Below, in pieces: positions 30,928 through 36,190 of a DNA stretch of 36,190 nt; the stretch's first letter is position 1; each line of letters opens with the position of its first letter. The notes below the pieces were generated by a model. The model did not search any database. It saw only the letters and a list, made by a program, of their open reading frames with translations, and was not told the origin of the DNA. This DNA comes from Terriglobia bacterium (GTDB lineage Bacteria > Acidobacteriota > Terriglobia > UBA7540). Where the stretch lies: NCBI GenBank assembly GCA_020073545.1, contig JAIQEZ010000040.1, forward strand, positions 1 to 36,190. The letters run 5' to 3'. Position numbers and translations under genes: made by a program.

Positions 30928-31854
30928 ATGGATTCACCGACAACATCGCTTCCCGTTCGGACCACCGCCCGCGGCCGTAGTTCCACGCTTGGGGCGTTGC
31001 TGGAAACGCTGCGCCCGCAGCAGTGGGTTAAGAATGGGTTTGTCTTTGCCGCTCTCATCTTTTCGCAGAGCCTCACCCGTTGGGACCGCTGCCGCGAGGT
31101 CATCCTGGCCGCGCTGGTTTTCTGCTTGATCTCCAGTGCCGCTTATGTCCTGAACGACATTCTCGACGCACCAGAAGACCGCCACCATCCAACCAAGAAG
31201 CTCAGGCCGATCGCCGCGGGTCGGATTAGCGCCACTAGAGCAGGAATCGCCGGTGTGTTTCTAGGGATCGTCGCTCTGGCCGAAGCCTGGAGGTTGGATT
31301 TACGCTTCTTTGGAATTGTCGCCGCTTACCTGGCGCTCAACGCTCTTTATTCCACTTTTCTGAAGAGAATCGTGCTTCTGGATGTGTTCATTGTTGCAGC
31401 GGGCTTTCTGTTTCGCGTAATCGGCGGGGGCCTGGTGATTCGAGTTGCCATCTCTCCTTGGTTGATCGTGTGCACCACCCTGCTCGCTCTCTTTATCGCC
31501 TTGAGCAAACGCCGGCATGAACTGGTATTGCTGGGCACTCATGCCTCTGATCATCGGGCCATTCTGGCGAAGTATACCCCGTACTTCCTGGATCAGTTGA
31601 TCAGCATTGTCACGGCCTCCACGGTGGTCTCGTACGCGCTCTACACCCTGTCGCCGGACGTCCAGAGCAAGTTTCCGGGAAAGCGGCTGGAGATCACAAT
31701 TCCCTTCGTACTGTTTGGGATTTTCCGCTATCTCCATCTGGTTCACCACGATCAGCAGGGAGGAAATCCCGCGCGGGTTCTTTTCACGGATCCGGTGTTA
31801 CTTTCCGTGGTTGTCATGTGGGCAGCATCCGTGATCTTCATCATTTATCTCTGA
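30928..31854 (+). CDS. UbiA-family decaprenyl-phosphate phosphoribosyltransferase (Rv3806c-like)
   Basis: 308 residues from the ATG at 30928, with AGGGAG six bases upstream. The polytopic protein has the LRPQQWVKNGFVFAALIFS start typical of DPPR synthases. The first Asp-rich motif is NDILDAPEDRHHPTKKLRPIA, the NxxxDxxxD equivalent. Next come NALYSTFLKRIVLLDVFIVAAGFLFRV and SKRRHEL, then a C-terminal YTLSPDVQSKF and TDPVLL segment. The mycobacterial enzyme joins phosphoribose pyrophosphate to polyprenyl phosphate on the membrane, the first step to polyprenylphosphoryl arabinose. The next two genes resemble DprE1 and DprE2, which gives strong context. Confidence 0.9.
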   Translation: MDSPTTSLPVRTTARGRSSTLGALLETLRPQQWVKNGFVFAALIFSQSLTRWDRCREVILAALVFCLISSAAYVLNDILDAPEDRHHPTKKLRPIAAGRISATRAGIAGVFLGIVALAEAWRLDLRFFGIVAAYLALNALYSTFLKRIVLLDVFIVAAGFLFRVIGGGLVIRVAISPWLIVCTTLLALFIALSKRRHELVLLGTHASDHRAILAKYTPYFLDQLISIVTASTVVSYALYTLSPDVQSKFPGKRLEITIPFVLFGIFRYLHLVHHDQQGGNPARVLFTDPVLLSVVVMWAASVIFIIYL

Positions 31855-31903
31855 GAGGTTTCCCGAGACCGAACTCCGCGCGGATTCTCAAAGCTTTGTC
31901 GAA

Positions 31904-32019
31904 CGGCCCCAGCCGGACTCGCAAAGTTGTGCTGCTTACGAGCTGCCCGGCGCCTCTCAGATGGAAATGAAACCGTTGACTATTGGGTTCACAACGAAAC
32001 CTCTGTCCGGCTGGGGCCG
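31904..32019. repeat. Perfect 15-base inverted repeat spanning the DprE1-like start codon
   Basis: Arms at 31904-31918 and 32005-32019 are exact reverse complements (left arm CGGCCCCAGCCGGAC), separated by 86 bases. The right arm encodes part of the conserved SGWGR segment of the oxidase. The left arm is in the untranslated region. Confidence 0.65.
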
Positions 32020-33346
32020 CTACCCCGTGCAGTCGTGTCACATCTTTCGGCCGGAGAAACGCAGCGAGCTTGCCGCGACCTTGGCGTCGGGCTTGCAGCC
32101 TTCTTATATCTCCCGCGGCCTGGGGCGCAGTTACGGTGACGCAGCACTGAATGACCACGCGGGCGTTATCTGGCATGTCCTGTTGAACCGTTTTCTTTCC
32201 TTCGACAGTTCCTCCGGGGTGCTCGAATGTGAGGGCGGAGTGAGCCTCGCCGAGATCATTCAGTATTTCCTGCCCCGCGGCTGGTTTCTACCCGTGACAC
32301 CGGGAACGAAGTTCGTGACCGTGGGTGGGGCCATTGCCGCGGATATCCACGGCAAGAACCACCACAAAGAGGGATCTTTCTCAAGCTTCGTTCGGAATTT
32401 CCGCTTGCTGATTCCTGGCGGTGAAGTTCTGCTTTGTTCTCCAACCGTGAATGCCCCGGTTTTTTGGGCCACCGTGGGGGGCATGGGCCTGACCGGAATT
32501 ATCCTGAGCGCGAGGCTTCAACTTCGCCGCGTGGAGTGCGCGTACGTTTTGGTGGACTTTCAAAAGGCTCGAAACCTCGAGGAAGCCCTGGCGACTATGG
32601 AAGAGTCGGACGAGCGCTATCAATACTCCGTGGCGTGGATTGACGGCCTCGCGACAGGCAAAGCGCTGGGCCGCGGCGTCCTGATGCGCGGCGACCACGC
32701 TGTGGCCGCCGATTTGCCGGCGCGCGTTCGGAATCCCCTTGCTGCCCTGGTGGGATTCCAGTGGAACCTGTTGTTCGACTTCCCCTCTGGGACTTTGAAC
32801 CGCCTCACGGTGAAGGGGTTTAATACGGCCTACTACGCGCTGCACCGCAACCTCACGCGCGAGCTCGTGAGCTTTGAGAAGTTCTTCTATCCACTCGATG
32901 CCATTCTCCAGTGGAACCGAATGTACGGCAGGCACGGCTTCGTTCAGTACCAGATCGCGCTTCCGCAGGCGAGCGGGCGCGAAGGTCTCCGCGCCATCCT
33001 GGACCGGCTGGCTCGCTCCGGCCGCGCCTCATTCTTGGCAGTCCTGAAGCGCTTCGGCGATGCCGGCCCCGGGCTGCTCTCCTTTCCACTGCGCGGCTAC
33101 ACCTTGGCCTTGGATATTCCCGTGGCCCGTGGACTGATTCCCTTCCTCCATGAGCTCGACCGGATGACCCTGGATCATGGGGGACGGATCTATCTGGCCA
33201 AGGACGCCGTGCTGCGAGCCGAGGATTTTGCCGCCATGTACCCGCGACTCGAACCCTTCCGGGTGATCCAGCGGAAACTGGACCCGCAAGGCTTGCTGTC
33301 TTCTTCGTTGGCTCGGAGACTGGCTATTGTCGAAACACATGTTTAA
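31961..33346 (+). CDS. DprE1-like FAD-dependent decaprenylphosphoryl-ribose 2'-oxidase
   Basis: 461 residues, the size of mycobacterial DprE1. The start could be the ATG at 31961 or the one at 31967. The FAD-binding domain shows LSGWGRYP, SYISRGLGRSYGDAALN, FLPVTPGTKFVTVGGAIAAD (split by HGKNHH next) and GMGLTGIIL. The substrate half has VLKRFGDAGPGLLSFPLRGY and IYLAKDAVLRAEDFAAMYP, whose Lys414 matches the essential Lys of DprE1. The residue aligned with Cys387 of M. tuberculosis DprE1 appears to be Ala383. The enzyme oxidises polyprenylphosphoryl ribose at C2' to the keto form, which DprE2 then reduces to the arabinose donor. The gene order UbiA-DprE1-DprE2 supports this. Confidence 0.9.
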   Translation: MEMKPLTIGFTTKPLSGWGRYPVQSCHIFRPEKRSELAATLASGLQPSYISRGLGRSYGDAALNDHAGVIWHVLLNRFLSFDSSSGVLECEGGVSLAEIIQYFLPRGWFLPVTPGTKFVTVGGAIAADIHGKNHHKEGSFSSFVRNFRLLIPGGEVLLCSPTVNAPVFWATVGGMGLTGIILSARLQLRRVECAYVLVDFQKARNLEEALATMEESDERYQYSVAWIDGLATGKALGRGVLMRGDHAVAADLPARVRNPLAALVGFQWNLLFDFPSGTLNRLTVKGFNTAYYALHRNLTRELVSFEKFFYPLDAILQWNRMYGRHGFVQYQIALPQASGREGLRAILDRLARSGRASFLAVLKRFGDAGPGLLSFPLRGYTLALDIPVARGLIPFLHELDRMTLDHGGRIYLAKDAVLRAEDFAAMYPRLEPFRVIQRKLDPQGLLSSSLARRLAIVETHV

Positions 33347-33409
33347 AGAACCTTCTATAGCTCACTCTGATGTTTATCGAAGCGGGATCTGCCGGGCGGG
33401 GGTAACTCT

Positions 33410-33556
33410 GTGCCGAGCGTTCTGATCCTGGGAGCCACTACGGGCATCGGACGGGCATTGGCGGCGGAGTTCGCATCGCATGAGTACGATCTTATCCTGG
33501 CAGGTCGCGACCTCGAAGAACTGCAGGCTCTCTCGGCCGACCGTGTGCGATCATAA
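33410..33556 (+). pseudogene. DprE2-like short-chain reductase, cut after about 45 residues
   Basis: A GTG start reads PSVLILGATTGIGRALAAEF and continues HEYDLILAGRDLEELQALSAD before meeting a TAA at 33554. The TGATTGIG-type nucleotide motif (here GATTGIGRA) and AGRDLEEL are typical of DprE2-like SDRs, normally about 250 residues. Position right after the DprE1-like gene fits decaprenylphosphoryl-2-keto-erythro-pentose reductase, the last step of the pathway. Everything past Leu-Ser-Ala-Asp is missing, because the sequence switches at about 33,541 to an unrelated gene in another frame. I count it as truncated by the junction, not as a decayed gene in its native place. Confidence 0.75.
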
Positions 33557-34163
33557 CTCGGCACAAAACGTTTTGGCCGTCAAGAAGGCGGGCGAGCGGA
33601 ACGGGCTGATGGTGCTCGGCGGGATGGAAGTCGCCTCTTCTGAAGAAGCGCACCTCCTGGTGTTCTTCGACGATGACGATGACCTTCTCGGATTCCAGGA
33701 TTATATTTACCAGCATCTGTATGGCAGAAATGACGAGCACGCCTTCGGTCTCCAGGTGATCGCAGACGACGAAGACGGGGTGACCGGTTTCTGTGACCGG
33801 CTTCTGATCGCGGCGACATCGCTCCCGGCCGAAGCAATCGTGGCGGCGGCCCGCGCAGCAAAAAGCGAGAGCCTCGTGATCGCTGCACATGTGGACCGAC
33901 AGTCCTTCAGCATCATCGGCCAGCTCGGCTTCATACCTCATGCCCTGGTCCTCGATGCTGTGGAAGTATCGGCGCAGATGACCGTAGACGAAGCGAAAGA
34001 GCGGTTCCCTGATTGCAGGAACTACCCCGTCATAACGGGCTCTGATGCCCACGGTCCTGAGGACATCGGCAAGCGATTTACCTGCTTCACCGTCGAAGAC
34101 GGGAGTGTGGCCGAGATCAAAAAGGCACTTACTGGCCGGGACGGCAGGAAGGCGGTCTGCTGA
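33540..34163 (+). CDS. PHP-domain metal-dependent phosphoesterase, N-terminus missing
   Basis: Homology begins abruptly at VCDHNSAQNVLAVKKAGE. Complete members have about 45-50 residues before this, including the HxH metal motif (usually DLHIHT). Remaining PHP features are GMEVASSEEAHLL, the LPAEAIVAAARA helix, HVDRQSFSIIGQLGFIP and a final GSDAHGPEDIG. Without the first His pair the product could not bind its metals. Genes of this type start operons for NAD(P)-linked [FeFe] hydrogenases in anaerobes, and the four following genes agree. The upstream bases belong to the DprE2-like gene in another frame, so this is a junction-truncated gene. Confidence 0.8.
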   Translation, partial: TVCDHNSAQNVLAVKKAGERNGLMVLGGMEVASSEEAHLLVFFDDDDDLLGFQDYIYQHLYGRNDEHAFGLQVIADDEDGVTGFCDRLLIAATSLPAEAIVAAARAAKSESLVIAAHVDRQSFSIIGQLGFIPHALVLDAVEVSAQMTVDEAKERFPDCRNYPVITGSDAHGPEDIGKRFTCFTVEDGSVAEIKKALTGRDGRKAVC

Positions 34164-34167
34164 GGTT

Positions 34168-34704
34168 TTGGAAGACATATCGCTCCATATCCTCGATATT
34201 GTTGAGAACTCGATATGTGCCGACGCGAAGAGAATAGAGATCATCCTTTCGCTGGATGCGGAGCATGACCTCTTTCGGGTGGAAATCAACGACGACGGCA
34301 GGGGGATGGATCCCGAGACGCTCGCAAAGGTCCGAGATCCCTTCTTTACAACGAAGGGAAAGAAGACCGGCTTGGGAATCCCGCTTTTAGCGCAGGCTGC
34401 TGAACAAACAGGCGGTGAACTCATCCTTGATTCCGCTCCCGGCAAAGGCACACAGATGTCGGTCGCATTCCGATGGAGCCATGTGGACCGGCCGGCAATC
34501 GGCAGTATGACGGACACACTGATGACGCTTATTGCAGGCCATCCGGACAGGGATTTTGTGTATGAAGAGCGGGCTGGCGACCGGGTTTTCCGGTTCGACA
34601 CACGCGAGATCAAGAGCGATCTTGACGGCGTGCCGATCGCAGCTCCCGCAGCACTTGGTGCAATCAGGGACTTGCTGAAAGAAAACATTCAACAATTTGA
34701 ATAG
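34168..34704 (+). CDS. HATPase (GHKL) ATP-binding protein of a hydrogenase-type operon
   Basis: 178 residues from a TTG start, with GAGG just upstream and five bases after the PHP stop. The GHKL fold is clear. The N box is LHILDIVENSICADAKRIEI, then NDDGRGMD, and the G boxes are DPFFTTKGKKTGLGIPLLAQA and APGKGTQMSVAF. There is no phospho-accepting His domain and no membrane segment, so this is a stand-alone ATPase module (anti-sigma or kinase-like). Similar genes lie between PHP and nuoE genes in anaerobic hydrogenase operons. Their role there is unknown, possibly regulatory. The start codon is uncertain. Confidence 0.8.
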   Translation: MEDISLHILDIVENSICADAKRIEIILSLDAEHDLFRVEINDDGRGMDPETLAKVRDPFFTTKGKKTGLGIPLLAQAAEQTGGELILDSAPGKGTQMSVAFRWSHVDRPAIGSMTDTLMTLIAGHPDRDFVYEERAGDRVFRFDTREIKSDLDGVPIAAPAALGAIRDLLKENIQQFE

Positions 34705-34735
34705 TACTATTTCAAATCAGCAGACGAGGTAGATA

Positions 34736-35275
34736 ATGAGTAACGATGCAGTTGCACAGAAGGAAACAACGGGTGCCGGAAAACAGCCCACCTTGGACAT
34801 GGGAGTGGACACCATAACGCCGGAGATGTACCGGAAGATAGATGCCATTGTCGAGCGGTACAAGGACAAGCCCGGTTCGCTCATCCCCGTGCTCCAGCAG
34901 GCGCAGGAGGTGTGCGGGTACCTACCGCACATCGTCCAGCGCTACATCGCGCAGGGGATGAATATGTAGCCGAGCATGGTGTTCGGCGTTGCTACCTTCT
35001 ATTCCTATTTCACGCTGGTGCCGCGCGGCAAACACGTCATTCGTGTCTGCCTTGGTACGGCCTGCTATGTGAAGAGGAGCGAAGAGATCCTTGAAAAGAT
35101 CAAGGATGAGTTGGATCTCGAGGTCGGGGAAGTCACGAGAGACAAAAAATATTCCCTCGAAGCAGTGCGCTGTCTTGGTGCCTGCGGTCTTGCGCCGGTC
35201 GTGGTAATAGGAGCGGACACGTACGGAGACGTGGCGGCCACGAAGGTGATGGATATCATCAAGAAATATGAATAG
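34736..35275 (+). CDS. NuoE/HndA-like 2Fe-2S subunit with internal amber codon
   Basis: GAGG lies about seven bases before the ATG. The frame runs 77 codons (YRKIDAIVERYKDKPGSLIP, VLQQAQEVCGYLPHIVQ, YIAQGMNM), meets TAG at 34967-34969, then continues in the same frame for 101 codons (PSMVFGVATFYSYFTLVPRG, CLGTACYVKRSEEIL, VRCLGACGLAPVVVI). The whole is a standard thioredoxin-like NuoE of about 178 residues, with all four Cys ligands downstream of the stop. NuoE passes electrons to the NuoF flavoprotein in NADH-linked hydrogenases or complex I. The stop falls where related proteins have an ordinary residue before the conserved Pro. Reads may show an error, a real nonsense mutation or recoding. 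The gene sits between the HATPase and HndB-like genes. Confidence 0.82.
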
Positions 35276-35321
35276 CTGAAGTATAAGATTACAACGCACA
35301 AGAGCAAGTAAAAGGTGAGAC

Positions 35322-35699
35322 ATGGCAAAGCTGACGATCGCTGATTTAAAAAAGATCAAGGAAGAGTACCATCAAGGACTGCGAGAGGGCGGGTTTCGGG
35401 CCAGGATCACGGTGCATATGGGGACCTGCGGCATCGCAGCAGGCGCCCGAGGCATCATGAATACGGTCATGGAAGAGCTGGCCAAATCCAACCTGAAGGA
35501 TGTGGCAATCACCACCTCGGGTTGCGCCGGACTCTGCAGCCAGGAGCCGATGGCTACCATTGAACTTTCCGGAGAGCCTCCGGTGAAATATATCTCGCTG
35601 ACCGAAGACAAGATGCGCAAGATCTTCACTGAACATGTGGTGGGCGGGAAACCAGTCAAGGAGTACGCCCTGGTCGTTGGGCATGAAACTACCTATTAA
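35322..35699 (+). CDS. 2Fe-2S ferredoxin-like protein (HndB type)
   Basis: 125 residues, with AAGGTGAG just before the ATG. LKKIKEEYHQGLREGG is followed by RITVHMGTCGIAAGARGIM. SGCAGLCSQEPMATIEL then supplies the remaining Cys ligands of a thioredoxin-like 2Fe-2S fold. The C-terminal KMRKIFTEHVVGGKPVKEYAL matches HndB of NADP-reducing hydrogenases, the small electron-transfer subunit between HndA and HndC. Gene order nuoE-hndB-nuoF here is the same as in those operons. Length is usual for the family. Confidence 0.88.
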   Translation: MAKLTIADLKKIKEEYHQGLREGGFRARITVHMGTCGIAAGARGIMNTVMEELAKSNLKDVAITTSGCAGLCSQEPMATIELSGEPPVKYISLTEDKMRKIFTEHVVGGKPVKEYALVVGHETTY

Positions 35700-35702
35700 T
35701 TG

Positions 35703-36190
35703 ATGGGGAACAATACCGTGGAGACAGCATACCGCTCAAATATAATGATTTGCGCAGGAACGGGCTGCGTGGCAAACGGCTCGCTCAAGGTGAAGGACGC
35801 GCTCGAGACCGAGCTAATCAAGCGAAGCCTCCAGAACGAGATCAAGATCGTTTTGACCGGGTGCAACGGGTTTTGCGCCAAGGGCCCGGTCATGGTGGTC
35901 TATCCCGAGGACATCTTCTATCAGCTTGTGAAGCCCGAAGACGTGCCTCATCTCGTTGAAGAGCACTTTATCAAGGGGCGGCCAGTTCAGAAATTCCTCT
36001 ACACGCCGCCGGCGCAGAAAGACGCGATACCGGTGATGAACGAAATCCCGTTCTTCAAGCACCAGGTGCTGCGTGCGCTCAGGAACCGGAGCCTCATCGA
36101 CGCCGAGAAGATCGAGGAATACATTGCCCGTGACGGCTATATGGCCGCGGCCAAGGCGCTCACCGAGATGACGCCCGAGCAGATCGTAGC
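35703..36190 (+). CDS. NuoF/HndC-like NAD(P)H-binding flavoprotein subunit, 3' end outside window
   Basis: The frame opens with ATG three bases after the preceding stop and stays open for 162 codons to the window edge. It starts NNTVETAYRSNIMICAGTGC and has a second Cys pair in TGCNGFCAKGP, the N-terminal thioredoxin-like 2Fe-2S domain found in HndC-type NuoF but absent from plain complex I NuoF. The linker FIKGRPVQKFLYTPP and PFFKHQVLRALRNRSLIDAEK then enter the flavoprotein domain (EEYIARDGYMAAAKAL). The NAD- and FMN-binding Gly-rich sites lie beyond the window. It probably accepts or donates electrons to NAD(P) in a bifurcating hydrogenase or formate dehydrogenase complex. Confidence 0.88.
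   Translation, partial: MGNNTVETAYRSNIMICAGTGCVANGSLKVKDALETELIKRSLQNEIKIVLTGCNGFCAKGPVMVVYPEDIFYQLVKPEDVPHLVEEHFIKGRPVQKFLYTPPAQKDAIPVMNEIPFFKHQVLRALRNRSLIDAEKIEEYIARDGYMAAAKALTEMTPEQIV

Follow-up and report, generated by a model that had tools for sequence, protein, structure and literature searches.

An abrupt junction in a Terriglobia contig very probably joins two unrelated bacterial genomes

We analysed the whole of a 36,190 bp contig (C29, the window) from a Terriglobia genome assembly and found that its affiliation changes at a single point, 33541/33543. Relatives of the left arm belong to the same genus and family, while those of the last 2,648 bases, the right arm, fall within one Nitrospirota family. 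Both genes interrupted by the break are intact across the breakpoint in relatives, as a 246-residue DprE2-like reductase in congeners and as a PHP-type phosphoesterase in Nitrospirota (248 residues in locus L003), and sequence composition switches between the arms. We put the probability that the contig is a chimera of two bacterial genomes, joined artificially, at about 0.95. Bases 1–33541 very probably belong to the binned genome (G000), and bases 33543–36190 to a fragment of a nuo (complex I) operon from an unrelated Nitrospirota species. This interpretation is supported by the discordant relatives of the two arms, the change in composition at the break and a probable continuation of the left arm on another contig. 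A sequence-only reading of this DNA had proposed an abrupt junction at about 33,541 and a chimeric contig; we confirm the first and find support for the second.

Results

Towards the break, the left arm carries a lactate permease-like gene, then genes for a UbiA-type decaprenyl-phosphate phosphoribosyltransferase, for a DprE1-like oxidase and finally for a DprE2-like reductase (Table 1), an arrangement kept in five same-genus genomes. Orthologues of the DprE1-like oxidase are 73–79% identical in five same-genus genomes, and an intact 246-residue DprE2-like gene follows DprE1 in five congeners and is also present in three further family members. The DprE2-like open reading frame of the window starts with GTG at 33410 and reads VPSVLILGATTGIGRALAAEFASHEYDLILAGRDLEELQALSAD. 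Homology to the reductase ends at the Asp codon that finishes at 33541, after which the frame encodes four unrelated residues before a stop codon at 33554–33556. With 44 of 246 codons kept, 202 residues are lost, in agreement with the earlier figure of ~200. Neither the C-terminal part of DprE2 nor an intact copy was found elsewhere in G000.

Table 1. Features on either side of the junction, in coordinates of the 36,190 bp window.
Feature	Coordinates	Strand	Basis or remark
UbiA-family decaprenyl-phosphate phosphoribosyltransferase-like gene, native	30928..31854	+	PF01040; NF008977 290.5 bits vs cut-off 234; congener order
DprE1-like FAD oxidase, native, intact	31961..33346	+	NF053785 489.5 bits, slightly below cut-off 500
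DprE2-like SDR reductase, codons 1-44, cut by junction	33410..33541	+	73-86% identity to congener codons 1-44
Junction	33541..33543		Left homology to 33541; right homology from 33543; base 33542 ambiguous
PHP-type metal-dependent phosphoesterase gene without first 42 codons, foreign	33543..34163	+	Nitrospirota homology; PHP_C domain only
HATPase_c (histidine-kinase-like ATPase domain) protein	34168..34704	+	PF02518; equal position in L003
NuoE-like thioredoxin-type 2Fe-2S subunit	34736..35275	+	PF01257; in-frame TAG at 34967-34969
Thioredoxin-like 2Fe-2S ferredoxin	35322..35699	+	Weak PF01257/NF041612 matches, both under cut-off
NuoF-like subunit, N-terminal 161 residues, cut by contig end	35706..36190	+	97% identical to L003 NuoF

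The UbiA, DprE1-like and DprE2-like genes (30928–33541) form a trio of the decaprenylphosphoryl-arabinose type, conserved across the genus and shared by some members of the family. We would not have expected a pathway of this type in the lineage. The left arm shares gene order and family matches with the UbiA-DprE1-DprE2 set of the decaprenylphosphoryl-arabinose pathway, but its DprE2 is cut by the junction, and DprE1 and the DprE2-like protein of the congeners score below the NCBIfam cut-offs for DprE1 and DprE2.

In one congener (G001) the gene following DprE2 encodes an 844-residue membrane protein, which we take from its sequence to be YfhO-like, no library model having matched. In two further genera of the family, too, DprE2 is followed by this gene. 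Its only homologue in G000 lies at the end of a second contig, C30, where the protein (about 60% identity) begins from residue 209 at base 2, in an orientation that fits a continuation of C29. Going by the spacing in G001, the gap from 33541 to C30 would amount to about 1.3 kb and would contain the DprE2 C-terminus; the C30 end shows no direct overlap with C29. C30 is probably the true continuation of the left arm, a link that we draw from synteny across the ~1.3 kb gap; this basis and the modest YfhO identity weaken it as support for a chimera. In the real left genome DprE2 would run on for about 200 codons and would probably be followed by the YfhO-like gene, the remainder of which lies at the C30 end.

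The right arm opens inside a PHP gene, in a frame different from that of the DprE2-like gene, so that two genes are truncated in different frames, as the sequence-only reading had described. The PHP frame aligns with Nitrospirota proteins from VCDHNSA at 33543 onwards. The intact L003 protein has 248 residues and reads GVCDHNSAENVLAV; the window enters it at V, so 42 residues are missing. The N-terminal truncation was therefore correctly recognised earlier, although its size had been given as about 50 residues. With these residues the window gene has lost the beginning of its PHP domain, and the intact L003 gene has both PHP and PHP_C domains. The window protein shares 71–82% amino acid identity with six Nitrospirota relatives and 67% with a seventh (L004), and in the PHP tree it nests inside this Nitrospirota family with support of 99/95. 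No match to it was found in 60 relatives of G000 (8 congeners and 52 others).

At the DNA level, seven Nitrospirota MAG loci (L003–L009) align from 33542–33546 to the contig end, and none of them aligns to the window left of 33542. Their genomes constitute one family, for which our search spanned 14 genomes. The closest of these share 73–89% DNA identity with the right arm, in pieces, and the parent species was not found among the 14. The order PHP, HATPase, NuoE-like, 2Fe-2S protein, NuoF-like is shared with the nuo operon of Nitrospirota MAGs of the GWC2_57_9/GWC2_56_14 type (69–89% DNA identity), from which the window differs in lacking the first 42 PHP codons, in the stop within NuoE and in ending inside NuoF. 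The NuoF fragment is 89–97% identical in protein to L003–L009 and at most 75% identical to sequences outside them. In L003 the operon runs nuoE, 2Fe-2S protein, nuoF, nuoG, nuoH, nuoI, nuoJ, nuoK, nuoL, with a NuoF of 596 residues comprising Complex1_51K and NADH_4Fe-4S domains. Judged by this gene content, the right arm corresponds in its relatives to part of a complex I (nuo) operon. We reject the earlier assignment to a hydrogenase operon, since L003 carries nuoE to nuoL; the window itself ends before nuoG. The hydrogenase label is understandable, because the top NCBIfam match of the NuoE-like protein is HoxE, below cut-off. One genome of this Nitrospirota family (L133; G073:C26 and G073:C110) holds two copies of the nuo segment.

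At the position of the in-frame TAG in the NuoE-like gene, each of the seven close Nitrospirota relatives has Ser. The TAG may stem from an error in poorly covered sequence or mark a pseudogene. It would be compatible with low coverage and the errors that come with it, but one nonsense mutation proves nothing.

G000 has divergent nuo genes of its own, with a NuoF on C179 and nuo-like genes on C192, and no high-identity copy of the Nitrospirota nuoF–L continuation was found in the assembly. The NuoF-like gene (L124, G000:C179:3411-5015) contains one in-frame TGA. The right arm could be regarded as the native nuo operon of one organism in which a true deletion truncated DprE2, given that both arms share one bin and one contig. 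These resident nuo genes count against such a deletion, as do homology, tree and composition, which assign the arms to different lineages, and we consider it extremely improbable.

Composition separates the arms along the same line. GC content is higher on the left, as previously noted (60.6% versus 55.4%). To score the sequence we used a tetranucleotide Markov model, for which the training set of each group (G000 itself and Nitrospirota) consisted of other contigs. The right arm scores +12.9, compared with -17.0 for fragments of equal length from the own genome (s.d. 5.2, maximum -6.0, n=116), none of which reaches the right-arm value. Nitrospirota fragments score +16.9 (s.d. 6.3), and 26% of them lie below the right arm. 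The left arm is negative throughout, with -11.6 for the last 2,648 bases before the break. From composition alone the best changepoint falls at 33324, which is 217 bases away from the break in homology. Twenty G000 contigs were sampled for up to 20 kb each, and none of their fragments had Nitrospirota-like composition. The tetranucleotide comparison and the protein searches of each arm, both suggested by the sequence-only reading, thus led to the same division.

The junction itself can be placed almost to the base. Base 33542 (C) agrees with the left gene and also with several, though not all, of the right genes; the flanking bases fit one side only, and the overlap deduced from relatives of both arms, which stand in for the parent sequences, is 0–1 nt. 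No tRNA and no notable or shared repeat was found at the break, and a domain search of the right-arm proteins returned no recombinase or integrase families, consistent with the earlier observation that transposase, integrase and repeat are lacking.

The junction could instead exist in a living population, through recent horizontal transfer or illegitimate recombination that placed a Nitrospirota PHP-nuo segment within DprE2 and disrupted that gene. A base-precise join with little or no overlap resembles non-homologous end joining, and related PHP and NuoF genes in Bryobacteraceae MAGs indicate that such genes occur in Acidobacteriota; however, the Bryobacteraceae PHP copies are only about 40% identical and belong to another clade. 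The right arm retains Nitrospirota composition, and both of its ends are bare, one cutting two genes and the other being the contig end. The border shows neither a mobile element nor a tRNA, and no target-site repeat was found there. The segment is found in no congener (PHP match in 0/8 congeners and 0/52 further relatives), its operon continuation is absent from a bin that has its own nuo genes, and its NuoE gene carries a stop codon. A recent non-homologous capture with loss of DprE2 is therefore highly improbable, and true recombination at the junction is very unlikely.

Two Bryobacteraceae MAGs (L038, L042) possess relatives of the PHP and NuoF genes, and their PHP proteins group with those of the Nitrospirota MAGs L060 and L062 (support 88/88), which possibly reflects inter-phylum transfer or further MAG contamination.

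Discussion

Viewed as biology, the junction is very probably no real feature but an ordinary assembly error. We infer that the join was made during sequencing or assembly, outside any cell. A shared k-mer is an unlikely cause, given the overlap of 0–1 nt and the lack of a repeat, tRNA or recombinase at the break. Tangles in a k-mer graph usually leave a longer overlap than this near-zero one, which counts against the chimera reading. Because comparison with relatives leaves no more than 1 nt of overlap, we lean towards a chimeric read or insert, or forced scaffolding or gap-filling, rather than a shared repeat. The join would most likely have formed where low coverage interrupted the left genome, so that the assembly lost the true path there and took up the foreign fragment in its place. 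The missing continuations of DprE2 and nuo, together with the C30 end, are what would be expected from such a loss and attachment.

Chimeric contigs produced by misassembly are a recognised class of MAG error, although chimera-forming misassemblies are relatively rare compared with mis-binning, which counts against a chimera here (PMC8201837). The contig resembles the interspecies misassemblies described in the GUNC paper (PMC8201837) in that it unites pieces of two lineages, in a bin that passes marker-gene quality measures (261 contigs, 5.28 Mb, 95.5% complete, 3.6% (3.56%) contaminated). It differs in that the foreign segment is short and lies at the contig end, and the overlap, apparently 0–1 nt, leaves no obvious repeat-mediated graph tangle. 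The fragmentation and the contamination of this assembly speak for a chimera.

The contig illustrates cleanly how a chimera of distant lineages can go almost unnoticed by a marker-gene contamination score, and the analysis points to C30 as the probable correct neighbour of C29 for re-assembly. Since the right arm is Nitrospirota by homology, tree and composition, the earlier caution against transferring its functions to the left organism holds. The five right-arm genes (33543–36190) should not be assigned to that organism, nor should its DprE2-like gene be labelled a pseudogene.
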